This document shows, one piece after another, positions 1 to 56,710 of a stretch of DNA of 64,000 nt. Position 1 is the first letter of the stretch. Each line of letters begins with the position of its first letter. The notes beneath the pieces were generated by a model. That model was not told where the DNA came from and made no database searches. It was given only the letters and a program-made list of their open reading frames with translations. This DNA is from Coprococcus sp. OM04-5BH (GTDB taxonomy: Bacteria; Bacillota; Clostridia; Lachnospirales; Lachnospiraceae), in the NCBI RefSeq assembly GCF_003482105.1, contig NZ_QULM01000001.1, positions 248,001 to 312,000 of the forward strand, given 5' to 3'. Made by a program: the position numbers and the translations under genes.

Positions 1-892
1 GCCACCTGTTGTAATAATCATCGGCAGTCTGGAACAGTGTATTCATAGTGGCAGGAACAAGCAGTACCTCAGGGGAATTATCGCAGACTATGGCTACTCT
101 TCCGTCAGCAATAGCTGCCGCCGCCTTATCCGGTCTGGTGGTTGACTGGAATACGGGAAAGGGATTATACCACTTCTTCTCCATCAGATGTTCCGCCATG
201 GCACTGTCGTAGATAGCGTCTATCTCATAGGCAGATATCCTCTCCCTTATACCATCAAGAAGCTCTTTTTCTGCCAGATCTTCTATATACATAAGGGCAT
301 AATCCGTCCTGCTTCTTCTTCCTATAACTCCCTGCTCCACCTTAAGTCCTGTATCCCTTATCCTTCGCCTTATGAGGGCAGTGCTGGTACGAAAGCCTTC
401 ATTAAAGCTGTCTCTGGCACCTCTCATTCCACTCTCCACACTACTTTCATCTATTCCACGAAGGGGAAACTTCTTGGTGGATACTATAAGAGCCTCTGTT
501 GCCCCGGATACAAATACTGCCGTGTCCCCCTTCATGGCCGCCCACACAGCATTGTCAAAATTATCTTCCTTTGTTATATCCGCCGTCTGGGCACCGTATT
601 CCCATATAAGGTTCATAAGATCCGGCGAAACATTGTCACGCCACTCCCAGGTAAGGGGCTTTATTATGGTCTCCGATACAAACTCATTGTTGCAGAGTCC
701 GTCTATATACAGAATATAAATATCTCCCTCGCCCCCTGCCATAGGAAGATGGAGCTTTTTCTTAACCACATCCCCGCAGCCGGAGAATATACCCTCGATT
801 CTGGCTACATTCTCCCGGATATCCTTACTTATATATAGAGAGCCTCCGTCTATGGAGCTTATATCTTTATTTTTCCGGATCGACGTTTCCAT
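1..892 (-). CDS. GerA-family spore germination protein, 3' part cut by window edge
   Basis: Germinant-receptor A subunit, which in spore formers sits in the spore inner membrane and takes part in nutrient-triggered germination. I translated the minus strand from the ATG at 890-892, which has GGAGG a few bases upstream. About 297 N-terminal residues are visible and open to the edge. They carry GerA hallmarks: YIDGLCNNEFVSE near residue 60, LRGIDESSVESGMRGARDSF, the run RTSTALIRRRI, and PEVLLVPATMNTLFQTADDYY near the edge. The C-terminal membrane part lies outside the window. Operon partners (gerC, gerB) would lie to the left and cannot be seen. Confidence 0.9.
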   Translation of the reverse strand, partial: METSIRKNKDISSIDGGSLYISKDIRENVARIEGIFSGCGDVVKKKLHLPMAGGEGDIYILYIDGLCNNEFVSETIIKPLTWEWRDNVSPDLMNLIWEYGAQTADITKEDNFDNAVWAAMKGDTAVFVSGATEALIVSTKKFPLRGIDESSVESGMRGARDSFNEGFRTSTALIRRRIRDTGLKVEQGVIGRRSRTDYALMYIEDLAEKELLDGIRERISAYEIDAIYDSAMAEHLMEKKWYNPFPVFQSTTRPDKAAAAIADGRVAIVCDNSPEVLLVPATMNTLFQTADDYYNRW

Positions 893-3115: not shown

Positions 3116-3370
3116 GTCTTAAGTTCCTCCTGATCTTATTTTTAATATTCCGATTACATTGTGCACCTGTATGTACAGCCCCCAGGCTTCCCCGGTGGCC
3201 TATATGATCAAGTGCCGGCTATGGTATATTACCCAAATATTCGATTCTCTCTGTTTTTTATCCTATTCACGCCGGCAAATAATATGCACACACTTCTTAT
3301 ATATAGTACTCACATCTTTCCACTTGTGTCACAAAAATATCAATGGGCAAGCATAATTTCTGAATTAAAT

Positions 3371-3405
3371 AGTAAAAGGAGGTATATATATGCCCCCCTT
3401 TTACT
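3371..3405 (-). terminator. Hairpin upstream of the flavin reductase operon
   Basis: AGTAAAAGGAGG pairs with CCCCCTTTTACT across a 10-nt loop, just past the stop codon of the DUF4358 gene. The T-tract on the minus strand is short and interrupted, so terminator strength is uncertain. Confidence 0.5.
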
Positions 3406-3424
3406 CCCATCATGTATAATCCAC

Positions 3425-3904
3425 TTACTTAAAGTACTTATCTATAACCGCTGAAACAGCATCCTTGTCATCAGCGATACAGAATACCACGTATTTGCCG
3501 CTCTTCTTGATGACTGCCTTGTCAACTCTTGATACCTCTTCAGGCTTGTAATCCTGCCAGGTCTTATAATCATCTTCTTTTCTCTCTTCTGCCGCTGTAA
3601 GGAGCTTATCTGCATCTGCATCTGTAGCTCCCTCAAATATAACGACTTCCTCTGCTGTAGCACCTGATGAGAAATACGTAACAGCGTCAGCTATCTCTGC
3701 GTCACCAACTGAATACTGGGAAATCCCCTTATCCTTGTTGATCTCAGCTATATCTGTGAAATTGCCGTTATCAACTATCTCTTTTGCTACTGAGTGAATG
3801 TCCATTGATACATCATCTGTCTTCTTCTCTTCCTTTGATCCACAGCCTGCAAATCCTGCAAGACACATTGCCATAGCAAGGCAAACAAGTAATTTCTTCT
3901 TCAT
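3425..3904 (-). CDS. DUF4358-type lipoprotein
   Basis: A 159-residue secreted lipoprotein. The N-terminus is a signal peptide with a lipobox (LAGFAGC, Cys near residue 21), so the mature protein should be lipid-anchored outside the membrane. The rest matches my memory of the DUF4358 family (VGDAEIADAVTYFSSGATAEEVVIFE; YKTWQDYKPEEVSRVDKAVIKKSGKYVVFCIADD). Function is unknown. It starts 28 bases after the SGNH hydrolase gene and is probably co-transcribed. In related bacteria DUF4358 proteins often accompany SGNH or MBOAT acyl-transfer genes, which suggests an envelope-modification role; that is an inference. Confidence 0.8.
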   Translation of the reverse strand: MKKKLLVCLAMAMCLAGFAGCGSKEEKKTDDVSMDIHSVAKEIVDNGNFTDIAEINKDKGISQYSVGDAEIADAVTYFSSGATAEEVVIFEGATDADADKLLTAAEERKEDDYKTWQDYKPEEVSRVDKAVIKKSGKYVVFCIADDKDAVSAVIDKYFK

Positions 3905-3932
3905 CTTTCTTATACCTCTTTAAAAATATAAT

Positions 3933-4946
3933 TTACTGAGCAGTCTTTCGCACATAAGTATTCTTTCTTATATACTCCAGTATCTTCTCATTGTAATTCT
4001 TATCACAATGTACTCCATCGGTACTTGCCTCCTCCGGGAGTGCACCATCAACTGTTACGGCAGATGCCGTATCCAGATATATTACATCTCCAAACTCCTT
4101 ACACATATCAAGGAGCATTCCGTTGTATGTGGTTATCTTGGAATTATTGATGTTCTCATCTGACGCTGACTTAGACGCAGATACCGGAAGAATACTCTCA
4201 ACCATGATAACTGCATTCGGTTGTACTTTCTTAACCTCTTCTATAAATGTTTTATAGTCATCAATAAATACCTCAGGATATAACCATCCCAGCTCATTCA
4301 TTCCGAAGCCGATATATATATACTTATATTCCTTGTATCCCAAAGCCTCTATAGGTGTTACCGTGGTACCGTTTGCAAGCTTGACAATATCATTCTCGAG
4401 AGCCTTGCTGGCTGTAAGTCCCTTGTCAGCCATGATAGCCCAGTTATTCACATCACAGTAGAACGCCAATCCCTCTGTTCTTGAATCACCGATAAGAGCA
4501 ACCTTGTCAAAATATGCATCATCAGTTACATTTCCCGGTTCAAATATAGCATCGTCATACCAGTCGCTGCCCTTTGATGAAAGGTCAGGATTTGTTACAT
4601 TAATACTATCAGCCCTGGCAGCTTCAGCAACATCCACACCGGCTGTCTGCTCCTCTGTGGAAGCGTCTGAGCCGTCCGTTACAGCTTCTCCTGTAGTATC
4701 CTCACTGCCTGTAGCTGCCTCAGAGGTTGTATCTCCTTTCTTATTATCTACGGCTTCTGTAGTCTTATCAGCACTTTCGCCCCCAAATATTCTCTTAAAG
4801 TCGCCTTTGTATTTTGTTGCAAATATTATTATAGCAAACAAAACAAATATTCCCGTAACAGTAGCAACTCGGATCCTTATCTGTCTCTTTCTTCTTGCTA
4901 TCGCTCTCTGCCGCCTGATATAATTGGGATTTTTCTTATCAACCAT
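3933..4946 (-). CDS. Membrane-anchored SGNH/GDSL-type hydrolase
   Basis: A 337-residue protein with a basic N-terminus (RRQRAIARRKRQIRIR), one membrane segment near residues 26-44, and a Thr/Ser/Asp-rich linker of about 80 residues. The extracellular SGNH fold begins at VALIGDSRTEG (nucleophile Ser). Later come GFGMNELGW and DGVHCDKNYNEKI with the Asp/His pair. It probably removes or transfers acyl groups on a cell-surface glycan; the substrate is not visible. The linker composition fits a wall-spanning stalk. The palindrome TTGATA-N5-TATCAA lies at 4973-4989 in its upstream region. Confidence 0.82.
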   Translation of the reverse strand: MVDKKNPNYIRRQRAIARRKRQIRIRVATVTGIFVLFAIIIFATKYKGDFKRIFGGESADKTTEAVDNKKGDTTSEAATGSEDTTGEAVTDGSDASTEEQTAGVDVAEAARADSINVTNPDLSSKGSDWYDDAIFEPGNVTDDAYFDKVALIGDSRTEGLAFYCDVNNWAIMADKGLTASKALENDIVKLANGTTVTPIEALGYKEYKYIYIGFGMNELGWLYPEVFIDDYKTFIEEVKKVQPNAVIMVESILPVSASKSASDENINNSKITTYNGMLLDMCKEFGDVIYLDTASAVTVDGALPEEASTDGVHCDKNYNEKILEYIRKNTYVRKTAQ

Positions 4947-17115: not shown

Positions 17116-19764
17116 TTATTTACATTCTTCTGATAATGCCTGGTGCTTCTTTAATAGATCGACTGTGAGCTTCTCAGGGAAGGTCTTAGGATTTCCTGAC
17201 TTGTTCGCACTGTCCTCTGCCTCGCCCTTATACAATGGGATTGGGTAGTACTTAAGAAGATCTTCTCTGCCGTTCTTGATGATACACTCTGCCATCTTCA
17301 TTGCCTCCGGATTGCTCTTATCGCCCTTATCTACAACCGCAACTGACTCTGTAAGGGTGAAGTTACCCTCCTCAGGATCTACATAGTCAATAGGAAGTCC
17401 TGCCTGCTTGTCAGCAACTGCCTGCTGACGAAGACCAAATCCGATAGCAACCTCTCCGGCACGGACCAGCTTAAGAGGACCTGAACCTGACTCCTCAAGA
17501 TGATCGCCGGCATTCTTGTAAATACCCTTAAGAACGTCCTTGGCTCCGTCTTCTCCGTACTCTGATATAAGTCCCTGAACTAACAGCCATGCTGTTGATG
17601 AAGATGCAATATCTGTAACTGATATCTGTCCCTCGTACTTACTGTCTGCAAGATCCTTGAGAGATGTAGGCATATCCAGATTATTCTCCTTCATAAGCTC
17701 AGTATTTACAATTATTGTTCCTTCCTGGGCTGTTATAGGTGTACAGTAAGATGGATATTCATCAATTGCATTAGTGTCGAAATCAAGATCCTTGAACATC
17801 TTCTTTTCATCCTGGGCACTCTCTACATAGAAGGTACTCATTGTAACAAGGTCAGCCTCTATATTGCTTCCCTCAGCTAACAGCTTTCCTCCAAGCTCTG
17901 AGGTTCCAAAGGTCTGTATTATGTATTTGTCCTTGTAACCATTGTTGTCAAGTGCATTCTTCATAGCCTCAATAGCTTCATCATCTGCATTAGAGTAAAT
18001 TATTACCTGCTCATTCTTTGCACTCTTTCCTGCACATCCACTTGCTGTCAGCATGGAAATTCCAAGCACACCTGCAAGCATCATCGCTGTCACTCTCTTA
18101 AATCCTCTGAATCTGTTCTTCTTCATTTTTCTTCTCCCTTTGAGTAGTTTTTTATTTGCCAAAAGCTGAAATACAGCCTTTACCAGTAAATTTGTCACAA
18201 GCATCAGCAACGAAAGCACAAACACCTCGTTAAACTTGTTATAATATTGAAATTCCTTTATCTTGGTAGTTATGACCATGGTTCTTGCACCTGCAATAAA
18301 TATTACAGCGCTTACAGTCACCATTGAATTTATGAAATAGTAGCTGAATACTTCCATAAGGCTTGAGAATGCATTCGGCGTCACAACTCTTACGATAGTT
18401 TTGACCCAGCTGTCTCCCATCAGCATAGCCGTAGTCTCCCATGATGCGTTCATCTTCTGAAGAGAACTCTTCATCATCAGGTATGGCGTTGAGAAAAAGT
18501 GGATCACGTTGCATATGATTATTATTGCAAATGTACTCTGAAGTCCTGTTCCTGAAAAGCAGAACAGAAAAGCAAGTCCCAGAACCATTCCAGGTATGGT
18601 GTTGGTCACCAGAGCAATTCCCTCTATGACCTGCTTCAGCTTGCTGCTCACCTGGCTTCTGGCAGTAACAATAGCTGCGCCATATGCCACCAGCGTTCCA
18701 ATCAGGGCAGTGATCAATGCCACAAATACGGAATTCTTATATACCATGGACAGTGCGCTGTCATCTAACACAGCCTTTACATGATTTAGAGAAAAATTCA
18801 GGCTGTAAGGCCAGTCCTGTACGAATGGTATGATGAATATAACTGCAAATATAGATATAACACCCATACATACAGCTATTCCAACGACGGAACATATAAC
18901 ATCTCTCACCCGGTTTCTCTTCAATTCCATTGTTGATATTTTGTTGTATCGTATATTGTATCTGTCTAAAAATCTAAGCAGCAGAATACTGAACACTGAT
19001 GGTATCAGCATGGTCATCGCCACAACGCTTCCCTTATTGAAATCCGGTACACTCCCTAACATCTGGGTGTAGAGGACGCTGGCTATTACATTGTATTTGC
19101 CTCCTACAGATGCCGGAATACCAAAGTCCGTGAAGCATAAAAAGAACGACTGGACAAAAGATGCAGCAAGAGTTCCCATAAGGGGGCGGAATACTGTCAT
19201 GAAAAACCTACTTAATGCATTATCACCCATAAGCCCTGACACAACCATGAACTTCTTATCTATATATCCCATAGTATTGTTTATAAGCATGAACGAAACC
19301 GGAAGCGTGTATATGACATATCCTATCAGCAGTCCATTAAATCCATATATATCAAACAACTGTCTTCCAAACAGCCTCGTAAGAAAGCCCTGTTTACCGA
19401 AGGAATATATTATCGTAAATCCATATGTAAGTGTCGGAAGAAGCATAGGCAGAGCAGCCACAGCTCTGATCAGCTTCTTGATGATCCCCGGTGTATCTGA
19501 ATAATGTATGATGTATGCCAGCATAAAGGCTATAAGAGTTGTTACCAGCGCACTGACACCAGCAACCTTGAAGCTGTTGCCCAGAGCTGTAAAAAAGCCC
19601 TTGCCTGTCATAACTGTCTTGTAATGCTCCATGGTAAGCCCGCCGGAACCGAGCACTGATTTAAGCAGAAGTCTCACCACAGGATATATCAGAAATCCAG
19701 CGAACAGCATGCTGATAACTATGAATATCAGTTTGATCTCTTTGTTTTTTCCTTTCATCTGCAC
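17116..19764 (-). CDS. Aminoethylphosphonate ABC transporter: permease fused to substrate-binding lipoprotein
   Basis: One open frame of 882 residues holds two normally separate proteins. Residues 1 to about 546 are a duplicated ABC permease of the iron/phosphonate (FbpB/PhnV-like) type with about 12 membrane segments. Residues 547-882 begin MKKNRFRGFKRVTAMMLAG with a full signal peptide and lipobox (LTASGC), and form a class-II-like solute-binding protein (VIIYSNADDEAIEAM). An internal ATG at 18124-18126 has GGGAG eight bases upstream, so the binding protein may also be made alone. Five A's precede that ATG; a one-base shift there would place a TGA stop overlapping it. AEP as substrate is inferred from phnW and phnX downstream. 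Confidence 0.88.
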   Translation of the reverse strand: MQMKGKNKEIKLIFIVISMLFAGFLIYPVVRLLLKSVLGSGGLTMEHYKTVMTGKGFFTALGNSFKVAGVSALVTTLIAFMLAYIIHYSDTPGIIKKLIRAVAALPMLLPTLTYGFTIIYSFGKQGFLTRLFGRQLFDIYGFNGLLIGYVIYTLPVSFMLINNTMGYIDKKFMVVSGLMGDNALSRFFMTVFRPLMGTLAASFVQSFFLCFTDFGIPASVGGKYNVIASVLYTQMLGSVPDFNKGSVVAMTMLIPSVFSILLLRFLDRYNIRYNKISTMELKRNRVRDVICSVVGIAVCMGVISIFAVIFIIPFVQDWPYSLNFSLNHVKAVLDDSALSMVYKNSVFVALITALIGTLVAYGAAIVTARSQVSSKLKQVIEGIALVTNTIPGMVLGLAFLFCFSGTGLQSTFAIIIICNVIHFFSTPYLMMKSSLQKMNASWETTAMLMGDSWVKTIVRVVTPNAFSSLMEVFSYYFINSMVTVSAVIFIAGARTMVITTKIKEFQYYNKFNEVFVLSLLMLVTNLLVKAVFQLLANKKLLKGRRKMKKNRFRGFKRVTAMMLAGVLGISMLTASGCAGKSAKNEQVIIYSNADDEAIEAMKNALDNNGYKDKYIIQTFGTSELGGKLLAEGSNIEADLVTMSTFYVESAQDEKKMFKDLDFDTNAIDEYPSYCTPITAQEGTIIVNTELMKENNLDMPTSLKDLADSKYEGQISVTDIASSSTAWLLVQGLISEYGEDGAKDVLKGIYKNAGDHLEESGSGPLKLVRAGEVAIGFGLRQQAVADKQAGLPIDYVDPEEGNFTLTESVAVVDKGDKSNPEAMKMAECIIKNGREDLLKYYPIPLYKGEAEDSANKSGNPKTFPEKLTVDLLKKHQALSEECK

Positions 19765-32400: not shown

Positions 32401-33408
32401 TTATATTAAATCAAGTCCGTATCCAAGTCTGGCGTTGCCGCCCTTATCTGTGTCCGGTCTTCTTGTCCTGTTAATAAGCTGCCACTCCTTAGGTATCATG
32501 GTCCAATCCTCTGTCGGCGTGTACACCTCCGGAAGCTTTCCCATAATTGTAGGTCTCTGACTGCCAACATGTCTCTGGCTGCCGGTTACTCCCATGCCAT
32601 GTCTCTGACTTCCGCCTATACTAAATCTCTGGCTGCCGGTCACTCCCATGCCATGTCTCTGACTTCCGCCCATATTAAATCTCTGGCTGCCGGTTACGCT
32701 CATGCCAGGTCTTTGGCTTCCGCCTATGCTAAATCTCTGGCTGCCGGTTACTCCCATGCCAGGTCTTTGACTTCCGCCTATACTAAATCTCTGGCTGCCG
32801 GTTACTCCCATGCCAAGTCTCTGACTTCCGCCTATGCTAAATCTCTGGCTGCCGGTTATGCTCATGTCAGGTCTTTGGCTGCCGCCTATGCTAAATCTCT
32901 GGCTGCCGGTTACTCCCATGCCAAGTCTTTGGCTTCCGCCTATGCTAAATCTCTGGCTGCCGGTTATGCTCATGCCAGGTCTTTGGCTGCCACCGATCAT
33001 GCACTTCTGTATTTTTTCTTCAAATGGGATAAGCTCTGCACCGCTGAACTCGATACTGTAGGGTCTTCCTCTGTACACAAGATAGGTTCTGTAGGAATAA
33101 ATCTGTCCATTTTTCCCAATAAGCTTCATATATACAGGCACGCCTTCTCCAAGCTCATTAAAATCATCAGCCTGTTCCGATGTTACCTTAACAAAATATC
33201 CACCAGAAGGAAGTGGGTACGCAAGGTACTCCATCAACTCCATGTCCCAATCAATATACAGATTATATTCACCCGAAAAAGTGTCATAATTTTTTATGTC
33301 AAAATAGCAGTATCCTGCCATAACCGGAAGCATTTGTGAAATTCTTCTATCAAAATGTGATTGTTCCTCTTCTGTTTTTCGTTTCAGAGATGAATAAATT
33401 ATGCCCAT
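32401..33408 (-). CDS. Unknown protein with eight GSQR-type 18-residue repeats
   Basis: A 335-residue protein I do not recognise. Residues 1-138 look like a compact globular domain (MLPVMAGYCYFDIKNYDTF; YLAYPLPSGGYFVKVTSEQADDF; VPVYMKLIGKNGQIYSYRTYLVYRG). Residues 139 to about 282 are eight tandem repeats close to GGSQRPGMGVTGSQRFSI. A short tail ends in RLGYGLDLI. There is no signal peptide or membrane segment. The repeats are very rich in Gly, Ser, Gln and Arg and are likely disordered, perhaps a binding scaffold. It lies 194 bases after the pseudokinase gene on the same strand, so the two may work together; that is inference. Confidence 0.75.
   Translation of the reverse strand: MGIIYSSLKRKTEEEQSHFDRRISQMLPVMAGYCYFDIKNYDTFSGEYNLYIDWDMELMEYLAYPLPSGGYFVKVTSEQADDFNELGEGVPVYMKLIGKNGQIYSYRTYLVYRGRPYSIEFSGAELIPFEEKIQKCMIGGSQRPGMSITGSQRFSIGGSQRLGMGVTGSQRFSIGGSQRPDMSITGSQRFSIGGSQRLGMGVTGSQRFSIGGSQRPGMGVTGSQRFSIGGSQRPGMSVTGSQRFNMGGSQRHGMGVTGSQRFSIGGSQRHGMGVTGSQRHVGSQRPTIMGKLPEVYTPTEDWTMIPKEWQLINRTRRPDTDKGGNARLGYGLDLI
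32562..32994 (-). repeat. 54-bp coding tandem repeat, eight units
   Basis: Each unit codes for 18 residues of the GSQR protein. Units differ by scattered point changes at three or four fixed positions (Pro/Leu/His, Gly/Asp, Gly/Ser, Val/Ile), which suggests repeated duplication or gene conversion. Confidence 0.85.
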
Positions 33409-39250: not shown

Positions 39251-39728
39251 CCATCCTTTCCTTTATTTTAAGTCTCGCCCTATGGTAAGTTACCCTTGCC
39301 CAGTTTTCTGATTTGCCGAATATCATGCCGATCTGTGAAAATGGCAACTCGCCAAATACCCTGAGCTGAAATACTTCCTTGTAAGGCTCCTGCAGTTCAT
39401 GCAGTACCAGATGTATCCTGAGTGCCGTGTCCTGATCTTCTACCTTGTCCTCTACGGTATCCGCCATACCCTCTGACGTCTCAGGAGTATCCTCATCCAG
39501 CTCTGCAAATTTTGAATTTTTGCGACATTCATCGATTGCCAGATTTTTAGCTATGCTGCATAGCCATGTAAGCTCACTGGCTTTACCTTCATATGACCGC
39601 CTGGCTGTCATTGCCTTAAAGAAAGTATTCTGGGTAACTTCCTCGGCGACACTACGGCTCTTCACAATGGTCATTACATATGAATAAACCTGAAGGTAAT
39701 ATGAATTGTACAATTTTTCATAATCCAG
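39237..39728 (-). CDS. ECF-type RNA polymerase sigma factor
   Basis: About 163 residues of the sigma-70 ECF group. Region 2 is YNSYYLQVYSYVMTIVKSRSVAEEVTQNTFFKA with LTWLCSIAKNLAIDECRK; region 4 is LQEPYKEVFQLRVFGELPFSQIGMIFGKSENWARVTYHRARLKIKE. The start is unusual. AGGAGG (39737-39742) overlaps the only in-frame GTG (39735-39737), whereas an in-frame CTG (39726-39728) lies eight bases away and gives MDYEKLYNSYY, a typical ECF beginning. I use the CTG, with doubt. It is paired with the anti-sigma gene downstream. Confidence 0.88.
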   Translation of the reverse strand: MDYEKLYNSYYLQVYSYVMTIVKSRSVAEEVTQNTFFKAMTARRSYEGKASELTWLCSIAKNLAIDECRKNSKFAELDEDTPETSEGMADTVEDKVEDQDTALRIHLVLHELQEPYKEVFQLRVFGELPFSQIGMIFGKSENWARVTYHRARLKIKERMDDNE

Positions 39729-39786
39729 AACTGTCACCTCCTATAATTTGTCTGTTGTTTTTCATGTTTTGGACCTTCCTATAGAT

Positions 39787-39814
39787 TAGACGCCACTTAA
39801 GGGTATTCGTTACA
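39787..39814 (-). promoter_or_regulatory. ECF-type promoter of the sigma/anti-sigma operon
   Basis: On the minus strand TGTAAC (39809-39814), 16-bp spacer, CGTCTA (39787-39792). This fits promoters read by SigX/SigV/SigW-like factors and suggests the sigma factor transcribes its own operon. Confidence 0.7.
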
Positions 39815-39869
39815 AATATTTTCAAAATAATTTAACGTTAAAGTTTATGAGCATTTAAAATAATATAGT

Positions 39870-39913
39870 GAAAAAGAGAACGTGGTTTTGTACAAAATCA
39901 CGTTCTCTTTTTC
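39870..39913. terminator. Bidirectional terminator after the prepilin gene
   Basis: Perfect 15-bp stem GAAAAAGAGAACGTG / CACGTTCTCTTTTTC; the stem itself supplies T's on the minus strand. It isolates the prepilin gene from the sigma operon. Confidence 0.85.
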
Positions 39914-39942
39914 ATACTCTATAATCAATATCTACTTACACA

Positions 39943-40563
39943 CTATTCAATATCGATCCAGCCTCGACCCATTCTCTTCTCTATGTTGGTTACAGGTGTC
40001 TTGTTGATACCACCATCCTGATTTTTAAAGCCTGAATAAACTCTTGAACACAGACGTCCATTCTTATCGTAACATATCTGAATGATGATCCAGTCCCAAC
40101 CACCTTCACTGCCATTGCTAAGGGTCTTCACACTATCCAGATCTATACCTTCTTTTCTAAGAAAATCGTCGAGAGCCTGACAATATGACCCGTCATTGTC
40201 TGATACAACACCATCAAAGGAGATACCCTTATCAGCTCCACACCATACAGTTCCAAGATTTTTACCATGATATGGAACCGGTGCATTTGCCTTGGATCCC
40301 CGGCACATCATAACCCAGAGACCATAGCCCTGCTTTCTCATTCCTGCCGGAAGTTCTATATCTCCTGATGAAAATGCATGTACCAAAACACTTTCAATAT
40401 CAGTGGCATTCTGAACATCCTTCGCCCTTCTGCTCTTCTCAAGATACTTTATTATGGCAGGTGCCAACGCACCTGTCAGAATAGCCATAATAGCAATTAC
40501 GATTATCAATTCAACCATGGTGATACCCTTTGAATCGAAACTGTTTCTTACTCTGCTTTTCAT
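39943..40563 (-). CDS. Type IV pilin-like / pseudopilin prepilin
   Basis: A 206-residue secreted subunit of a type IV pilus or related system. The leader ends SKG, and the mature part starts ITMVELIIVIAIMAILTGALAPA with Glu at +5, the class III/prepilin-peptidase signature. The globular C-terminal region (GWDWIIIQICYDKNGRLCSRVYSG) has a Cys pair. No prepilin peptidase, ATPase or platform protein is in the window, so assembly must use genes elsewhere. It is transcribed alone behind a cyclic-di-GMP riboswitch. GGGG lies before the ATG. Confidence 0.9.
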   Translation of the reverse strand: MKSRVRNSFDSKGITMVELIIVIAIMAILTGALAPAIIKYLEKSRRAKDVQNATDIESVLVHAFSSGDIELPAGMRKQGYGLWVMMCRGSKANAPVPYHGKNLGTVWCGADKGISFDGVVSDNDGSYCQALDDFLRKEGIDLDSVKTLSNGSEGGWDWIIIQICYDKNGRLCSRVYSGFKNQDGGINKTPVTNIEKRMGRGWIDIE

Positions 40564-40586
40564 AGCTTCCCCTTCCTCATCTTCAT

Positions 40587-40738
40587 CGCAAAGCTCATAT
40601 TCTTATAATATGAATCCCCCGTAAAAAAATGCTTTACGCTACTAGCAGATCAACAAACAAGTACAACTGGCTACCATTTTACAGGCCCTATAGCTTTGCG
40701 TCACACTCTTTAGAGTGTTTTGCCGAATATACACATAT
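40587..40738 (-). ncRNA. Cyclic-di-GMP-I (GEMM) riboswitch leader of the prepilin gene
   Basis: On the minus strand the aptamer (about 40660-40730) reads TTCGGCAAA, then the P2 hairpin ACACTC-TAAA-GAGTGT, the highly conserved GACGCAAAGC, then GGGCCT and GGTAGCCAG closing P3. This is the order of GEMM-I aptamers. The P2 loop is UAAA, not the usual GNRA, and P1 is weak. Downstream, AGCTTTGCG (40587-40595) is perfectly complementary to CGCAAAGCT (40692-40700) inside the aptamer, a possible alternative pairing 24 bases before the start codon. I infer control of translation or transcription by c-di-GMP. Confidence 0.85.
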
Positions 40739-40744
40739 AGTGGT

Positions 40745-40774
40745 ATACTAATACCTGGAAGGGAACTATGTCAA
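40745..40774 (-). promoter_or_regulatory. Promoter of the riboswitch-prepilin transcript
   Basis: On the minus strand TTGACA (40769-40774), 18-bp spacer, TAGTAT (40745-40750). The start would be near 40738, giving a leader of about 175 bases. Confidence 0.6.
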
Positions 40775-40826
40775 CACAGTCGTCATAAAATGCACCATCC
40801 AATGCAGATTTTTTTATTTAGAACAA

Positions 40827-41438
40827 TCACCGTGTTTTTCTTCCGTAACGGAAATCGCAATATTTTCCACCCTCTGCAAGGGTCTGGGTCCTTGTAAGCT
40901 TCATTCCCATCATATCCGCCAGCACATAATCCATGCGGCACAGATATTTCGCCAGCTCGAAGCAGCCCTCGTCCCGGCAGAGATTACAGATACCGCAGAT
41001 GTGATAATCGTATCCCAGCACAAAATCATCCTGAGGTCCCCCTTCAATAATATCAACTACCCAGTCATTCCTGTATTTCTTAAGATGTGACTGCCTTGAC
41101 CATTCCTTTCTTCCTGCCATCTTCTTCTCGTCAAGATAGCTGTCCACGTCTCCCACTGCCTTGTGAAATAATTTATTACCATATAATCCATCCTTATACA
41201 GCTCAAAACATTCCTCCGGAGATAATTGGGTCATTCTATTTAAGGCAATGAAATATGCACCCATGCAATATGAACTCATAAGCCTGGATTTCCCTATATC
41301 CTCGGCACGCTCAAGCACCGCCCGGTACTCTCTTTTTATAGCTCTGCTGTCTATGGAAATGTGCCTGTTCTTCGCCTCCTTCATGCATGAACTATGATAA
41401 AAATATCCAAATAATTTCTGTGTGAATCCGTACTTCAT
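40827..41438 (-). CDS. L-2-amino-thiazoline-4-carboxylate hydrolase-like protein
   Basis: A 203-residue protein matching what I know of the ATC hydrolase family, named for an enzyme that opens L-2-amino-thiazoline-4-carboxylate on the way to cysteine. Features are SSYCMGAYFIALNRM, YHICGICNLCRDEGCFELAKYLCRMDYVLADMMGM, and LAEGGKYCDFRYGRK at the end; the clustered Cys residues may bind a metal. Members in gut Firmicutes are often annotated without experiment, so the true substrate is open. It is third in an operon after a methyltransferase and a TetR regulator. Confidence 0.75.
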   Translation of the reverse strand: MKYGFTQKLFGYFYHSSCMKEAKNRHISIDSRAIKREYRAVLERAEDIGKSRLMSSYCMGAYFIALNRMTQLSPEECFELYKDGLYGNKLFHKAVGDVDSYLDEKKMAGRKEWSRQSHLKKYRNDWVVDIIEGGPQDDFVLGYDYHICGICNLCRDEGCFELAKYLCRMDYVLADMMGMKLTRTQTLAEGGKYCDFRYGRKTR

Positions 41439-50721: not shown

Positions 50722-51396
50722 TTATTTTATAATCAAACACCTGTCGCAGTCAATAATATGACTCCGATTTTTTACGTCTGTCAATTCCAACTCCCTCTGC
50801 TCAAGAAGTACAAGGTTTACCTTTTCATACTGAGCAGACTTGCATAGCTCCTGAAGTTCGTACTTTGTAAGAAAAGTAGACATGTTAAGCAAAAATACCA
50901 CTTTTATTCCCAGCAATTCTGCCAACATCTTTATATACTGGATTAATTTATCTACCAGCTTTCCCTCTTCAAACTGAACCTTAACCTCATACAGCTTAAA
51001 CAGCGTATTCCAGTCAAGATCCAGATTATACACAAAATTATCATATGGTGATCTTAAAATTACCTCATCCAGGATATTTACTATAGAAGAATTTATTTTC
51101 TCACGAAGTTCATCTAATCCTTCCGCACTGTCTCTCAGGACATTATATGCTTTACTTATAATTCTTTTCTCGTTGAAATCTACACCAAATGGATTGGAAA
51201 TAAATTCAACTTTTTTATCCATTTTCAATGTATCGTTCTTTTCTGACAGCACAAAATTTCCAGCTTCTCCATCAAGCTGGGAAATTAACTCCTGAATAAA
51301 TTCCGTGTATATATCCGGACCTTCTATAGAAATTATTTCAGTACGATTTTCTGCAAATTCTATGTCAATATTATAAGATACATTAACCAACCTCAT
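50722..51396 (-). CDS. csn2: CRISPR adaptation protein Csn2
   Basis: A 224-residue protein forming a calcium-stabilised tetramer ring around DNA ends, needed for spacer capture in type II-A systems. MRLVNVSYNIDIEFAENRTEIISIEG at the start and the C-terminal VKNRSHIIDCDRCLIIK fit the family; the central helical part contains NLDLDWNTLFKLYEVKVQF. It overlaps the end of cas2 by four bases (ATGA). Its presence defines subtype II-A. Confidence 0.93.
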   Translation of the reverse strand: MRLVNVSYNIDIEFAENRTEIISIEGPDIYTEFIQELISQLDGEAGNFVLSEKNDTLKMDKKVEFISNPFGVDFNEKRIISKAYNVLRDSAEGLDELREKINSSIVNILDEVILRSPYDNFVYNLDLDWNTLFKLYEVKVQFEEGKLVDKLIQYIKMLAELLGIKVVFLLNMSTFLTKYELQELCKSAQYEKVNLVLLEQRELELTDVKNRSHIIDCDRCLIIK

Positions 51397-51713
51397 AGAA
51401 TTATCAACCTTTCATCACTTTCAAGAACATCCCCTATATGTTCTCCCAATACAAATTCCATCTTTGAAAATTGCTTTTCAGTTATCCTTAGCACCTGTAT
51501 CAATCCCTCCGGGGGCTTATTCTTCCTTACTCCTTCAACAATCAGATCTGCTGCCGAAGCATTTTGTGCAAGCTTGCAATATATACTTTCCTGCATCATT
51601 AAAAAACCACTTTTGATCAGATATTTCCTGAATTTGGAATATTCCTTTCTGCCTGCAGCCGTCACCACCGGCAGATCAAACATTACAATCACTCTCATAA
51701 ATCTATAACTCAT
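51393..51713 (-). CDS. cas2: CRISPR-associated endoribonuclease-fold protein Cas2
   Basis: A 106-residue partner of Cas1 in spacer integration. RVIVMFDLPVVTAAGRKEYSKFRKYLIKSGF is the canonical ferredoxin-fold start with the first-strand Asp; MMQESIYCKLAQN follows. It overlaps cas1 by 11 bases and csn2 by four. Confidence 0.97.
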   Translation of the reverse strand: MSYRFMRVIVMFDLPVVTAAGRKEYSKFRKYLIKSGFLMMQESIYCKLAQNASAADLIVEGVRKNKPPEGLIQVLRITEKQFSKMEFVLGEHIGDVLESDERLIIL

Positions 51714-52575
51714 TTTTATAAAACTTTATCAATGATACGTCCTTATCATTTAAGGCGTCAAATACACTACGACAATATACCTTTATAGCATTAGGCAGAT
51801 ATTCCAATCTGCCTGCAATATACAATTCCTTGTTGAAAATGTCCAACATAAACCTTTTTTCTTCAACCTCAAATGTCTGAGGCTCCAGCTCCATTACCAT
51901 ATCATCAACAATAGGTCTAAATGGCTCCATCAGATCTGACGCCAGATTAAATTGATTAAACATATTATCGTGAAAAAGTCCTATCTGGGTAATATAGCCA
52001 TTTGCAACTACTTCTCTGTTAAATGTTGACAATATCAGGGAATACCCATAATTCAGTGCAGCATTTGTAGGATTTTCTTCTGTCCTGGTGAATTCCTTTC
52101 CAAATAGTGCATTGAAATACACTTTTGCCGCATGCCCCTCCCTGTTAGTGGCGTCTCCATATTCCATTTGCTCAACATATTCATACAGCATATGTGCTTC
52201 AGGTCTTCCATACACTTCCAGAACCCTTGCCTGCATTCGTATTTTCTCTGAAACTATTTCCGTCCATACAGATGCTTTATCATCTGCCGACCATTCACAC
52301 TGTTTCCTTATTTTTGCACTTGTGTCATGACTACCATAATACGGCAACAGTTCCGATGAAGGATTTCTCTTCTCATCACAAAATATAACCTTTACCTTGT
52401 GTTTCACCAGCTCACTTAGCAAATACGCCGTCATAGAGACAGCCGTACTCTCCACAATGACTGTCCCTATTTCGTTCATATGTACCTTTGTAGTTTCTGC
52501 ACCTCTGACTACCATATACCCCATCTGATAATCAAGCTTTGCATTCTTAGATACTACTATTGTTCTCCAACTCAT
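51703..52575 (-). CDS. cas1: CRISPR integrase Cas1
   Basis: A 290-residue metal-dependent integrase. MSWRTIVVSKNAKLDYQMGYMVVRG and IGTVIVESTAVSMTAYLLSELVKHKVKVIFCDEKRNP form the N-terminal beta domain. The active-site Glu is in TRTEENPTNAALNYGYSLI, the His in TQIGLFHDNMFNQFNLASDLMEPFRP with its Asp/Glu. It starts three bases after the cas9 stop. Confidence 0.97.
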   Translation of the reverse strand: MSWRTIVVSKNAKLDYQMGYMVVRGAETTKVHMNEIGTVIVESTAVSMTAYLLSELVKHKVKVIFCDEKRNPSSELLPYYGSHDTSAKIRKQCEWSADDKASVWTEIVSEKIRMQARVLEVYGRPEAHMLYEYVEQMEYGDATNREGHAAKVYFNALFGKEFTRTEENPTNAALNYGYSLILSTFNREVVANGYITQIGLFHDNMFNQFNLASDLMEPFRPIVDDMVMELEPQTFEVEEKRFMLDIFNKELYIAGRLEYLPNAIKVYCRSVFDALNDKDVSLIKFYKNEL

Positions 52576-52578
52576 ATT

Positions 52579-55500
52579 TTATATAGTTAATAAATCTACC
52601 CTCTCTTCGTATATTCCAAGGACTGACTGGTTTATTAATAAAACTTCGCTGTAACTTGACAATACCTTATTGGGTTTCATCGTTCCCGTCTTTTTACTTG
52701 CACCAATCAACTCTAAATTTGCCCCATAATTTGTCTGCTGGGTAATACCAACTAATTGAAGTATAATTTCTGCCTGCTGTTTCAGAGATAAATTATTGAA
52801 TTTATTCTCATCTAACTTATCTCCTATCGGATTAATCCTCTTTGCATATATACCGTTCACGAATTTGTCCTTTAACATCAGGAACACCTTACCATTTTCC
52901 TCCCTGGTGGCACCACATTCCTCATATATCTCTTCCTGAACATCCCGTTCCTTAAGCATCGCTAGGTTTTTAATATACTTTGCATCTTGATATGATATCT
53001 TAAGCTCCTCAGCATTACTTATTAATAATCTATTTTCTGATCTTCCCGTCAATAACACCTCAAATCCATTAACCCTAATCTTGGAATACATCTTTATACG
53101 TCTGTATCTTACACTAGGTTCCTTAAGTCCAAGCATTTCCCTGCAATATTCCTCCAACTGCTCCTTGGTGTTGTAATGATCCTTAAGATATAATGGTAAT
53201 GCCTCCAGGGATCTAACCCGTTTTCCCTTCTCTGTATATTCAACCAAGAAGAAATATGTTCCCTTAACATCAGAATATCCTCCATATTTTTTCACATCAG
53301 ATAACCGATTATCATTTAACTTAGATGGTATATACATATCCTTACTTGCTTCTTTTATACTGTTTGTTCCTATCAGGCTTACATTATACAATTTACCATG
53401 TCTCTCATAATTCATCCTGGTCACAAGTGGTGTGTTCCTTGCCATCACCTTACGCACTGTATCAATACTTTTCTCACCATCAATGCTCCATGCCGTGACA
53501 CCATTTCTGGACACATTGTACTTGAACATCTTTGCCATGTTATATTTTTCTTTACCCTTCTCATAATCCTTTATGAAATTATATGGATTTCTGGTAAATT
53601 TAACATCGTACACATTTCCAACAACAATGTTCAGGTAAGCGTCATTTGCATGGTGGAAATTATTGATCATCCTGCACTTTATAAGATCAAACTCGTGTCT
53701 GAAATCACTTACATTCGGTGCCTTCACATATACAATGTCCGTATCAGGAAATGTCTGCTTAAACAGATCGGTGATAACCTTCGTTCCCTGTCTCGTCTCC
53801 ACAAGCTGACGATTAATAAAGCCGACTCTCTCATCGTCAGAGAAACCATCAGTTCTCATTAATCGTTTAAGCTTCTCCTTTGTAATGAAACCACCATCAG
53901 CCAGTGCATGCCAAAAGCCCGCCATCTTACCTCTTATATCAGCCTCTATAGGGAATGTATCGCTCTTATGAGCATTCTTCTCCTTTTTAACCAGCACCAT
54001 ATTATTGTCGAGACTGTCATCCTTTACAAAGTGTCTTGGATAGATGTGGTCTATATCATACAGGTTATCCTTGAACAGATCACTAAGCTCTATCCTCTCA
54101 CCTGTATACATACACCTGCCCTTCTGGGTATAGTAAAGATATAATTTCTTACTTCTGAACTGTCCCTCATCGGTTTCCTTTATGGCCTTCTGCCAGTCAA
54201 ATGTATCATCCTTAACACTTCTGTACAGGTAAGCAAATTTACTCCTTCGGCTTTCAGTTCTCTTTTTCTCAGCATTTGGATCTCTCGCCATCTCGACAAA
54301 TATCTTAGACGGACCATATCCCATAACCTTACAGATCTCCTTAAGTGCAAGTATGGTCTGCCAGGTCATCCTCTTTACCGGAGCAGATATATATAATTCA
54401 TCCAGATCCTCATATTTGATCTCTCCAAGTAACTTGTCCACCGCCATTGATCTTTCACTTATCTCCTCTTTATATGTGAAGTTTCGACTCTCGATCAATT
54501 CCATGAGATTGTAATTTTCATTCCACATACGACCTATGACAGTATCGATCACTCCATCATCCTTACTGCAGCCCCGGGTTTCAAGAAGTGCCTTTGACAG
54601 TCTGCCCCAATCCTTGAACTTAAATCCCAGTATCCTCTTTAACTGATCCTTTGTAAGCTTGTCCTCCCCATAATTCTCAGTGATCTTCTGCTTCAGGAAA
54701 GACTTGGTATCACCATATAAAGTAGACCATTTTATAATATCCTCTGTCATTTTTTCCTGATCATATGTAAGAGTCTCCACTCCAAATACTGCGGCAAATT
54801 TTCCATAATTTGCAAGTCTGTTGGTGAAGTCTCCATCTATTCCGGATATAACAGGATCCTCTTTTGCTTCCACGTACCCATTTGTCTTAAGATACTCCTT
54901 CAGCTTTTTGGCAGTAACCTTCTTACCCGATTTAAACAGATCATTGTATATATTCTGCTTTAATTCCACTGATATCTTCTCACCATTTATCCTGAGATTG
55001 TTCAACTCATTCAGTAATGTAAATCTCTCATATAATAATGAATTCTTCGGAAGCACCTGCTCGCCATTAAGATATGTACACTTATTTACCATTCGTGAGA
55101 TAAATTTCTCCGCAGACTCCTTGACATCTATCTTCTGCTCAAAATTCCACGGATATACCCTGCCGGATTCAAGCCTTACAGACCATACATTCTTACTCTT
55201 TGATTCCTCTCCCACCTTCTCGGCAATAGGTCCAACATAATATGGAATCTGGAACTCGAACATTTTAATGATCCTCTCAGAAACTGTATATCCGGACTCG
55301 TCCTTATCCAAAAGAAATGGCAGATAGCTTTCAGCATTTTTTAGGATCTTCTTCATTTCCTTTTTGTGCACCTGGTTAGGAATCACTCCATTAGACGCCG
55401 TAAGCTGTTTTGGGAGAAATGTTTCCTTGCTGATCTCCTGAAGCACATATTCTCTATCCTGTGATTCCGGCATTTTGGACACAAGAGTACTCACCTTCTT

Positions 55501-56637
55501 AAAGAAAGCGTCTCTGTCACATTTTGCCCCACGTCTCACAGGTCCATTCTTATAATTCACAGATCCAACATACGCACTGTAATTATCATTTGCCATCTCC
55601 CTGAACATTCCATAGTACTCACCGGGAGCATTTTCTTTTATGAGCTTTTTAAGTATTGCCAGGTCTTTTCCGTGTTTCTCATAGGAATCCACCCTTGCAA
55701 ACGAGAGATATTCGTATCCCTTCATAATATTTGCAAGGACGCAGTGATCGTGTATCTCCTTTATCTGCATAAATATGTCAAACTGCTCTTCCCCGAGAAT
55801 ATTCTCCACAGCAGTAACCTTTTCATCAAAACTGCTATCCCTGAAAGAAATACTGAAATTCTTCGCCTCATCATCCTCTGTATTCACTGCAAATAAATTA
55901 CTGAGTTTTCCCTTAAGACCGCATGTAAGTTTCCATATTTCAACTATATTCTTATCCTTGGACTTGGAAAGATTTAAGCTTTCTATGATAAGCTCCACTC
56001 TCCTGCTGGCAGAATATTCCTTGGAAGTCAGAATATTCTTCAACTTGTCATAATCATCTATATCAGGCAGCTCAAGTTCCATATACTGGCTTATGTCTGA
56101 TCTCAGGTTTTCATACATCTCTTCTATACTACCGGTACTGCCCTCTCCGATATTGGAGTTCAGGAAATGACCTCTGTGCTTATACATATTCAGAAGCGCA
56201 AGAAATACAAGCCTCACATCATGAGGTTCTTTGGAAGTGAGCAATTCTTTTCTAAGATAGAATACCGTAGGATACTGTTCATAATAGTCCTTATCCGTAT
56301 ATCCATTCCCTGCAAATAAAGCAAATGGCTGCTTTACTATCTTATCCTCTTCGCAATATTTACTGTCATCAAGCCGCTGATAAAATCCTGGATCAACCGC
56401 CTCTATGGCCGGTGCAAATACCATTCTGAGATATCCTTCCCTGGCACGTTCCCTTGCCAGTCTCCTTTTGGCAACCCTGTTTGTTCTTCTTTCAGCGGCG
56501 GTATTTGCCGTGTCAAATAATCTCACTCCCCACAGATCTTTTCCTTTTCTTCTTATCAATCTGTATTTTTCATCAGTAACAGCCCAACCAAGAGAAGCTG
56601 TACCCATATCAAGCCCCACATAATATCTTTCGTTCAT
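52579..56637 (-). CDS. cas9: CRISPR-associated endonuclease Cas9, type II-A
   Basis: RNA-guided double-strand endonuclease, 1352 residues from the ATG at 56635-56637 (GGGAGG upstream). RuvC-I is YYVGLDMGTASLGWAV with Asp10; the Arg-rich bridge helix is AERRTNRVAKRRLARERARE; RuvC-II KIFVEMARD has Glu782; HNH is YDIDHIYPRHF with His864 and Asn879; RuvC-III HHANDAYLN has His996 and Asp999. All catalytic residues are kept. The C-terminal PAM-interacting region cannot be used here to predict the PAM. First gene of cas9-cas1-cas2-csn2, divergent from tracrRNA. Confidence 0.98.
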   Translation of the reverse strand: MNERYYVGLDMGTASLGWAVTDEKYRLIRRKGKDLWGVRLFDTANTAAERRTNRVAKRRLARERAREGYLRMVFAPAIEAVDPGFYQRLDDSKYCEEDKIVKQPFALFAGNGYTDKDYYEQYPTVFYLRKELLTSKEPHDVRLVFLALLNMYKHRGHFLNSNIGEGSTGSIEEMYENLRSDISQYMELELPDIDDYDKLKNILTSKEYSASRRVELIIESLNLSKSKDKNIVEIWKLTCGLKGKLSNLFAVNTEDDEAKNFSISFRDSSFDEKVTAVENILGEEQFDIFMQIKEIHDHCVLANIMKGYEYLSFARVDSYEKHGKDLAILKKLIKENAPGEYYGMFREMANDNYSAYVGSVNYKNGPVRRGAKCDRDAFFKKVSTLVSKMPESQDREYVLQEISKETFLPKQLTASNGVIPNQVHKKEMKKILKNAESYLPFLLDKDESGYTVSERIIKMFEFQIPYYVGPIAEKVGEESKSKNVWSVRLESGRVYPWNFEQKIDVKESAEKFISRMVNKCTYLNGEQVLPKNSLLYERFTLLNELNNLRINGEKISVELKQNIYNDLFKSGKKVTAKKLKEYLKTNGYVEAKEDPVISGIDGDFTNRLANYGKFAAVFGVETLTYDQEKMTEDIIKWSTLYGDTKSFLKQKITENYGEDKLTKDQLKRILGFKFKDWGRLSKALLETRGCSKDDGVIDTVIGRMWNENYNLMELIESRNFTYKEEISERSMAVDKLLGEIKYEDLDELYISAPVKRMTWQTILALKEICKVMGYGPSKIFVEMARDPNAEKKRTESRRSKFAYLYRSVKDDTFDWQKAIKETDEGQFRSKKLYLYYTQKGRCMYTGERIELSDLFKDNLYDIDHIYPRHFVKDDSLDNNMVLVKKEKNAHKSDTFPIEADIRGKMAGFWHALADGGFITKEKLKRLMRTDGFSDDERVGFINRQLVETRQGTKVITDLFKQTFPDTDIVYVKAPNVSDFRHEFDLIKCRMINNFHHANDAYLNIVVGNVYDVKFTRNPYNFIKDYEKGKEKYNMAKMFKYNVSRNGVTAWSIDGEKSIDTVRKVMARNTPLVTRMNYERHGKLYNVSLIGTNSIKEASKDMYIPSKLNDNRLSDVKKYGGYSDVKGTYFFLVEYTEKGKRVRSLEALPLYLKDHYNTKEQLEEYCREMLGLKEPSVRYRRIKMYSKIRVNGFEVLLTGRSENRLLISNAEELKISYQDAKYIKNLAMLKERDVQEEIYEECGATREENGKVFLMLKDKFVNGIYAKRINPIGDKLDENKFNNLSLKQQAEIILQLVGITQQTNYGANLELIGASKKTGTMKPNKVLSSYSEVLLINQSVLGIYEERVDLLTI

Positions 56638-56654
56638 AACATTCCTCCCACTTA

Positions 56655-56710
56655 CTGGCACGGCTCACGAAGTGATGGCGTGCTATCCTTTTTCATGTGT
56701 CATTTGACAC
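56655..56710. repeat. Family II short hairpin element upstream of cas9
   Basis: CTGGCACGGC...GCGTGCT followed by TTTTTCATGTGTCATTTGACAC, with stems GCACG/CGTGC and GTGTCA/TGACAC. The same layout appears at 63961-64000, also about 20 bases before a start codon. Confidence 0.65.

Follow-up and report, generated by a model that had tools for sequence, protein, structure and literature searches.

The closest described systems to the element considered here are the GEMM-I (class I c-di-GMP) riboswitches Vc2 of V. cholerae and Cd1 of C. difficile, the latter of which acts by termination. In the published excerpts cited here and below by PMC number, G20, C92, A47 and A48 are key to ligand recognition, and C92 is highly conserved and required (PMC3764141). 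In Cd1, the base that pairs with the ligand is C87, the equivalent of C92, and replacing A24-26 in the P2 loop with U abolishes binding (PMC9262584). The G20A/C92U double mutant is reported at 4900 nM versus 0.011 nM for the wild type (PMC9049102) and takes c-di-AMP, and G20A takes cGAMP (PMC9049102, PMC7288161, PMC6274999), whereas in Vc1 the mutations C104G and C104A, which alter the C92 equivalent, are described as causing no drop in expression (PMC4744006). A natural form with an altered ligand-contact base on the GEMM-I scaffold is the GEMM-Ib 3',3'-cGAMP riboswitch (Geobacter pilM), in which A20 is present and C92 is kept. In C. difficile, only 11 among 12 class I and four class II switches are functional; the seven functional class I switches are OFF switches, and the class II switches are ON (PMC6366702). 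A c-di-GMP-family riboswitch before a Clostridia pilin gene is represented there by the pilA1 switch Cdi-2-4, which belongs to class II, acts as an ON switch by read-through and is followed by a pil operon (PMC6366702).

The window, i.e., the whole 64-kb stretch of DNA that was analysed, contains a single Rfam match above the cut-off. This match, to RF01051 (GEMM-I/c-di-GMP-I), spans 76 nt of the minus strand (40734-40659), covers the model completely (1-87) and scores 50.5 bits (E 6.5e-7), with the gathering cut-off at 35; the element belongs to this RNA family. A preliminary description, made from the letters alone, had placed a GEMM-I core on this strand and proposed an RF01051 covariance search, and both are borne out by the significant full-length match and by the presence of every part of that core: GGCAAA (40724-40719), the P2 hairpin, GACGCAAAGC (40702-40693) and GGTAGCCAG. 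The AG preceding the 3' strand of P3 is kept along with GGCAAA and GACGCAAAGC. The full-length covariance match, GGCAAA, GACGCAAAGC, P2/P3 and the location in a 5' UTR are all shared with Vc2 and Cd1. Positions are numbered after an excerpt of PMC3764141 and the Vc2 sequence. The G20 equivalent, the first G of GGCAAA, lies at 40724 (minus strand) and is conserved.

Three features distinguish the window aptamer from Vc2 and Cd1: the base at position 92 (40663, minus strand), which makes the Watson-Crick contact with the ligand, is U in place of C; the P2 loop (40712-40709, minus strand) is UAAA instead of GNRA; and no recognisable terminator follows. The changed position also differs from that of GEMM-Ib, in that G20 is kept and C92 is replaced, rather than A20 being combined with C92. 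Among 262 distinct clean aptamers, window included, position 92 is C in 252 and U in 10, and the combinations of positions 20 and 92 are G20/C92 (199), A20/C92 (51), G20/U92 (10), another base with C92 (2) and A20/U92 (0). This set combines the best hits with the lower-scoring hits of 47 genomes and a partial sample of one genus (60 regions plus the loci of the genus search, of ~150 listed), after removal of 15 loci clipped by contig ends, four duplicates and 10 rows with an unpaired 3' strand or an unrecognised core; it leans toward low-scoring hits, and its counts are not a per-genome rate. C occupies position 92 in 128 of the 129 best-scoring aptamers, a biased sample in that variants score low. 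All ten U92 aptamers carry G20 and none carries A20, an absence that is not significant because only ~1.9 would be expected by chance.

The U92 carriers include the window, L412, L374, L375 and L300, and the ten rows also count L301 and L303, whose 3' ends look abnormal. L412 is the leader of another prepilin and has a terminator-like hairpin, and L374 and L375, both from Eubacterium ruminantium FB3002, have hairpin-like stretches with T runs downstream; L374, L375 and L412 match RF01051 at 57.4, 54.7 and 49.3 bits, respectively. Because U92 recurs in these three aptamers with hairpins downstream, the substitution need not mean decay. L224 and L002 contain AGCCAGUUGCACUU, and the equivalent window site reads AGCCAGUUGUACUU. 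The UAAA loop, which the preliminary description had pointed out, is likewise real and rare: among 266 parsed aptamers, 258 have a GNRA loop and three have UAAA, namely the window, L315 and L318, the last two of which score 69.9 and 68.6 bits. This loop retains A at loop positions 2-4 (AAA, 33-35). Since the published mutants pull both ways, U92 is a warning, not proof of loss; nevertheless, the ligand contact that was checked differs from the standard, c-di-GMP sensing is therefore not established, and on the pocket bases it appears less certain than first described.

Two observations on the aptamer set concern other loci. A20 with C92 occurs in 51 of the 262 clean GEMM-I aptamers (the L119-L418 set), an abundance that may mean either that many are dual-specific or that cGAMP-type sensing extends beyond Geobacter. 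At L160, two class I aptamers stand in tandem before one gene, one copy with C92, which best fits RF03167 (c-di-GMP-I-GGC), and one with U92, which best fits RF01051.

The gene following the aptamer encodes a prepilin of 206 aa (39943..40563, minus strand), with a start 95 nt downstream of the aptamer. A sigma-70-like promoter, TTGACA-18-TAGTAT, with 10 of 12 consensus matches lies at 40745..40774 (minus strand); six such sites are found in the region versus 3.7 in shuffles, which makes the call weak by itself, but its position directly 5' of the aptamer fits. The prepilin consists of an N-terminal PF07963 (N_methyl) match, at 25.2 bits against a cut-off of 21.2, and a head domain. Its predicted structure (pLDDT 87.0, pTM 0.80) has a long N-terminal helix at residues 16-66, and a Foldseek search of the PDB finds no match at E <= 0.001 despite the good model. 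The upstream neighbour is an L-2-amino-thiazoline-4-carboxylic acid hydrolase gene, and downstream lie a sigma-70 family (ECF-like) gene and a zinc-finger anti-sigma-like gene. The prepilin had been described as isolated from pilus assembly genes, and this holds: no pilus-assembly ATPase, membrane platform or prepilin peptidase is found among the 45 window ORFs scanned with Pfam (0/45). A short reading frame, ATGAAGATGAGGAAGGGGAAGCTATGA (40561-40587), ends at the prepilin start codon in an ATGA overlap, which could reflect translational coupling or chance.

Homologues of the prepilin number 354 proteins at E <= 1e-3; among the matches listed (120 of 354), identity across most of the sequence falls from 97% (P0001) to as low as 32% (P0102), with P0002-P0014 at 58-65%. 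The head motifs CGAD, WDW and SRIYSGFKN are conserved, and the head is common to many metagenomic homologues. A single-sequence search of genome contigs for the prepilin returned nothing, and a profile search of genome and viral contigs returned, among the matches listed, mostly the N-terminal prepilin region, with the head WDW motif in none of the profile-search loci examined among those matches. The family-wide prepilin search gives hits in 22 of 397 genomes at E <= 1e-12, and near-full-length relatives of the window prepilin occur among these 397 only in G304 and G331. Placing the window by its FabF gives 69% identity at best and points to no close genus. An Rfam scan of 20 of the 25 prepilin-hit loci (L074-L093) gives no match, which is a point against a deep link of the switch with the window's own prepilin family, as far as these loci represent it.

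By two terminator scans and hairpin folding, no intrinsic terminator is recognisable between the aptamer and the prepilin. The scan of 39700-41000 gives none versus 0.6 expected in shuffles, a result of little weight alone, and a run of seven T residues (40623..40629, minus strand) is not preceded by a stable hairpin (best -2.6 kcal/mol). Among the relatives, terminator-like hairpins lie within 200 nt of 141 of 197 aptamers versus 15 after one shuffle per leader, a control from which leaders containing N were left out. The prepilin-linked relatives have a terminator in 14 of 21 cases by the scan, in 16 of 21 at -9 kcal/mol or better and in 18 of 21 by either method; L002, L406 and L407 have one by neither. 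As a terminator was not found in the window, the output most likely runs through translation or the stability of the mRNA, and we infer that the switch, if active, would act at the mRNA level.

The preliminary description had also reported a 9-base downstream stretch complementary to the aptamer, giving a simple switch. The complementarity itself is exact, with AGCTTTGCG (40595-40587) matching CGCAAAGCT (40700-40692); on the minus strand, these correspond to the candidate anti-aptamer strand AGCUUUGCG (40587..40595) and the aptamer strand CGCAAAGCU (40692..40700). When the leader is shuffled 5000 times with dinucleotides preserved, 1.2% of the shuffles contain a complement as good to that strand and 2.0% to the whole aptamer, so that the 9-base match is only mildly significant. 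By eye, GCGUAAAGC (40631..40639, minus strand) resembles the aptamer strand and could also pair with AGCUUUGCG, with one G-U pair. Once AGCUUUGCG is made, the free fold is predicted to be better than the aptamer-bound fold by 10.1 kcal/mol, compared with 2.8 kcal/mol for the bare aptamer, but the gap of 10.1 kcal/mol drops to 2.5 kcal/mol when the first codons are included. In that full fold, UGUUUGUUGAUCUGCUAGUAGC of the leader (40640-40662) is predicted to pair with ~40540-40566, at the start of the prepilin gene.

The simple switch is not supported by the remaining results. Anti-aptamer complements of at least 7 bases are found in 19 of 194 relatives versus 16.0 expected, and a search for a 3'-strand anti-aptamer across the leaders gives no clear enrichment. 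A Shine-Dalgarno-like sequence, GAGGAAGGGG (40569..40578, minus strand; by eye), is not hidden in either modelled state: with the first codons included, the predicted unpaired fraction is 0.84 for the ribosome site and 0.43 for the AUG, alike with or without the aptamer. The fold of the whole leader is no better than that of shuffles (z -0.24, 72/200 as good). Clear OFF logic in equilibrium folding is seen among the leaders only in L390 and L412, and no direction (ON or OFF) is therefore claimed for the window.

A lone prepilin under a class I switch had been called unusual, which is correct for the family as a whole but not for one genus within the sample. RF01051 is present in 134 of 397 genomes of the family, and a prepilin-like motif lies downstream of 4 of 196 aptamers (the window, L002, L282 and, less surely, L131); nearly all of these 196 come from the 397-genome draw and its low-scoring tail, with the window and L002 included. 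Within a single 61-genome genus, to which Eubacterium ruminantium FB3002 (G026, the genome of L027) belongs, RF01051 is found in 53 of 61 genomes (52 above the cut-off), with up to 13 matches per genome. The prepilin-linked class I aptamers besides the window amount to 21, spread over 20 genomes, of which 19 belong to the 61-genome genus. The figure of 21 results from 25 prepilin rows minus three false ones (L097, L015 and L414) and the window, with the genus leaders, L002 and L040 read. The aptamer pattern, a regular expression, returned 337 rows including false aptamers, of which 200 were kept after filtering; L040, found by this pattern, matches RF01051 at 59.3 bits.

The linked gene exceeds the PF07963 cut-off in 20 of the 21 loci, and L412 has an intact ORF of 215 aa assigned by its motif only. 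RNA family and gene order in these Lachnospiraceae loci (L002, L282, L339, L340, L393, L412 and others) are as in the window, whereas position 92 is C in 20 of 21, with U92 in L412, and terminator-like hairpins are present in 18 of 21. Two prepilins stand in a row in L002, L389, L393, L395, L398, L401, L404, L407, L412 and L413, and with a gap in L380; in L406, an ABC transporter gene follows. The single prepilins of L282, L339 and L340 lie among unrelated genes and are as isolated as that of the window. Judging from these gene orders, class I control of an orphan prepilin is a recurring scheme in the genus, and no description of it was found in the open-licence literature searched. No full-length relative of the window prepilin itself is found in the genomes of the genus that were searched.

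L282, L339 and L340 have an upstream DAGK_cat gene in common; in L282 and L340, QueC precedes DAGK_cat and a Lyase_1 (purB-like) gene follows the prepilin, while the L339 stretch ends short of QueC and its downstream fragment, which has no Pfam match, resembles that of L282 by eye. From these shared neighbours, the three represent an orthologous orphan prepilin locus.

L040 is a contrary case, since a gene for a PilB-like protein with MshEN and T2SSE domains is nearby. That gene (2-760, minus strand) lies ~2.5 kb from the switch-governed prepilin (3353-4042, plus strand). MshEN is a known type of c-di-GMP receptor, and c-di-GMP may act here on both the PilB-like protein and the prepilin. T2SSF matches occur in 23 of 23 relatives and are strong (E 8e-30 or better) in 22, with G002 as the exception; in most of these 22 genomes, a single frame of ~400 aa holds two strong matches, which is the layout of PilC. 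The orphan prepilins are probably used in trans.

The best explanation, which is judged about evenly poised between right and wrong, is that the GEMM-I switch still adjusts prepilin output, although its recognition of the ligand is probably weakened or shifted and its output is probably not a terminator. The RF01051 element would lie in the 5' UTR of a transcript that carries the prepilin gene alone and would bind a cyclic dinucleotide, most probably c-di-GMP, less tightly than a standard aptamer does; weaker binding is proposed because a U stands at the guanine-pairing position and the P2 loop is not of the GNRA type. In the unliganded form, AGCUUUGCG (and UUUUUACGGG) would invade the aptamer, and in the liganded form, P2/P3 would be made and translation or stability altered. 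Machinery from other loci of the genome would then process the prepilin and assemble it into pili. Ligand, direction, mRNA-level output and use in trans are thus parts of a model. It is favoured by the full-length RF01051 match, the upstream promoter-like site, the prepilin as next gene and the same order in 21 loci, by the recurrence of U92 and UAAA in other aptamers, by the 10.1 versus 2.8 kcal/mol gap, and by T2SSF in 23 of 23 and GGDEF proteins in 12 of 12 relatives searched. It is weakened by a leader fold like that of shuffles, by the fall of the gap to 2.5 kcal/mol, by the unchanged exposure of the ribosome site, by anti-aptamer complements that are no family feature and by the 20 prepilin-hit loci that have no Rfam match. 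Compared with Cdi-2-4, the window has a class I aptamer before a lone prepilin with no terminator found, rather than a class II switch before a pil operon. Given the recurrence of class I switches before isolated or paired prepilins in one genus, a second messenger may control pilus subunits that are encoded away from pil operons, and the U92 variant offers a simple binding test of natural drift in the GEMM-I pocket.

The main rival is a decaying switch that has lost its terminator, the GNRA loop and, by C92U, the ligand contact, with the prepilin now expressed regardless of c-di-GMP. Two rare changes coincide in this aptamer (U92 in 10 of 262, UAAA in 3 of 266), its 50.5 bits compare with at least 61.1 for the RF01051 hits listed in the 397-genome draw, and no terminator is seen behind it, in contrast to 18 of the 21 prepilin-linked relatives; the incomplete functionality of the C. 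difficile set (11 of its 12 class I plus four class II switches; excerpt of PMC6366702) and the loss of binding in the Cd1 A24-26 mutant (excerpt of PMC9262584) point the same way. However, the promoter-like site, the pairing of P2 and P3 and the rest of the core are preserved, the hairpin leaders L412, L374 and L375 also carry U92, and UAAA recurs in the high-scoring L315 and L318 with AAA kept at 33-35. In addition, expression was undiminished in the Vc1 C104G and C104A mutants (excerpt of PMC4744006), and decay is considered unlikely.

A bolder rival holds that the G20/U92 pocket reads 3',3'-cGAMP, in the orientation opposite to that of the A20/C92 cGAMP aptamers. Base-pairing logic, in which one half of the pocket would read G and the opposite half A, would allow this, and the ligands taken by G20A/C92U (c-di-AMP) and G20A (cGAMP) are in line with it (excerpts of PMC9049102, PMC7288161, PMC6274999), as is the exclusive pairing of U92 with G20 (10/10), although the lack of A20 is not significant. 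The cyclase content of the genomes argues otherwise. Searches covering GGDEF and SMODS, with hybrid GGDEF enzymes and the L301/L303 genomes outside their scope, find GGDEF proteins in 12 of 12 genomes (six with U92, six without; 6 to 34 each, E <= 1e-20) and a SMODS cyclase in one of 12, a non-U92 genome. The six U92 genomes (G026, G516, G213, G235, G015 and G079) have 6 to 27 GGDEF proteins each (E <= 1e-20) and a SMODS-type cyclase in none (0/6), which favours c-di-GMP over cGAMP there. Additionally, a G-U wobble could keep c-di-GMP binding. A cGAMP-reading pocket in the window is thus improbable, and the general form of the idea, that G20/U92 aptamers are a natural third ligand state with the adenine of 3',3'-cGAMP on the position-92 side, is decidedly improbable; two such aptamers (the window and L412) precede prepilins. 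Genome G499 has 13 RF01051 matches in 3.5 Mb and contains a SMODS cyclase.

A fully ordinary c-di-GMP class I switch, in which position 92 is dispensable in this sequence context, is very improbable. The score well over the gathering cut-off and the retained expression of the Vc1 C104 mutants (excerpt of PMC4744006) would agree with it, but ligand recognition is described as needing C92, a highly conserved base (excerpt of PMC3764141), its equivalent C87 in Cd1 pairs with the ligand (excerpt of PMC9262584), and C is found in 252 of 262 aptamers. Finally, chance similarity to RF01051 is refuted by the E value of 6.5e-7 over the full model and by the promoter-like site and prepilin found in order in 21 relatives, and is virtually impossible.

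Elsewhere in the window, a single 882-aa ORF (17116-19764) contains both BPD_transp_1 permease and SBP_bac domains and adjoins aminotransferase and HAD hydrolase genes, which we presume, from their look, to be phosphonate genes. A 335-aa ORF (32401-33408) carries many GSQR-containing repeats and has no Pfam match. At 50722-56661, CRISPR-Cas genes of type II-A appearance are present, including Cas9, Cas1 and Csn2.
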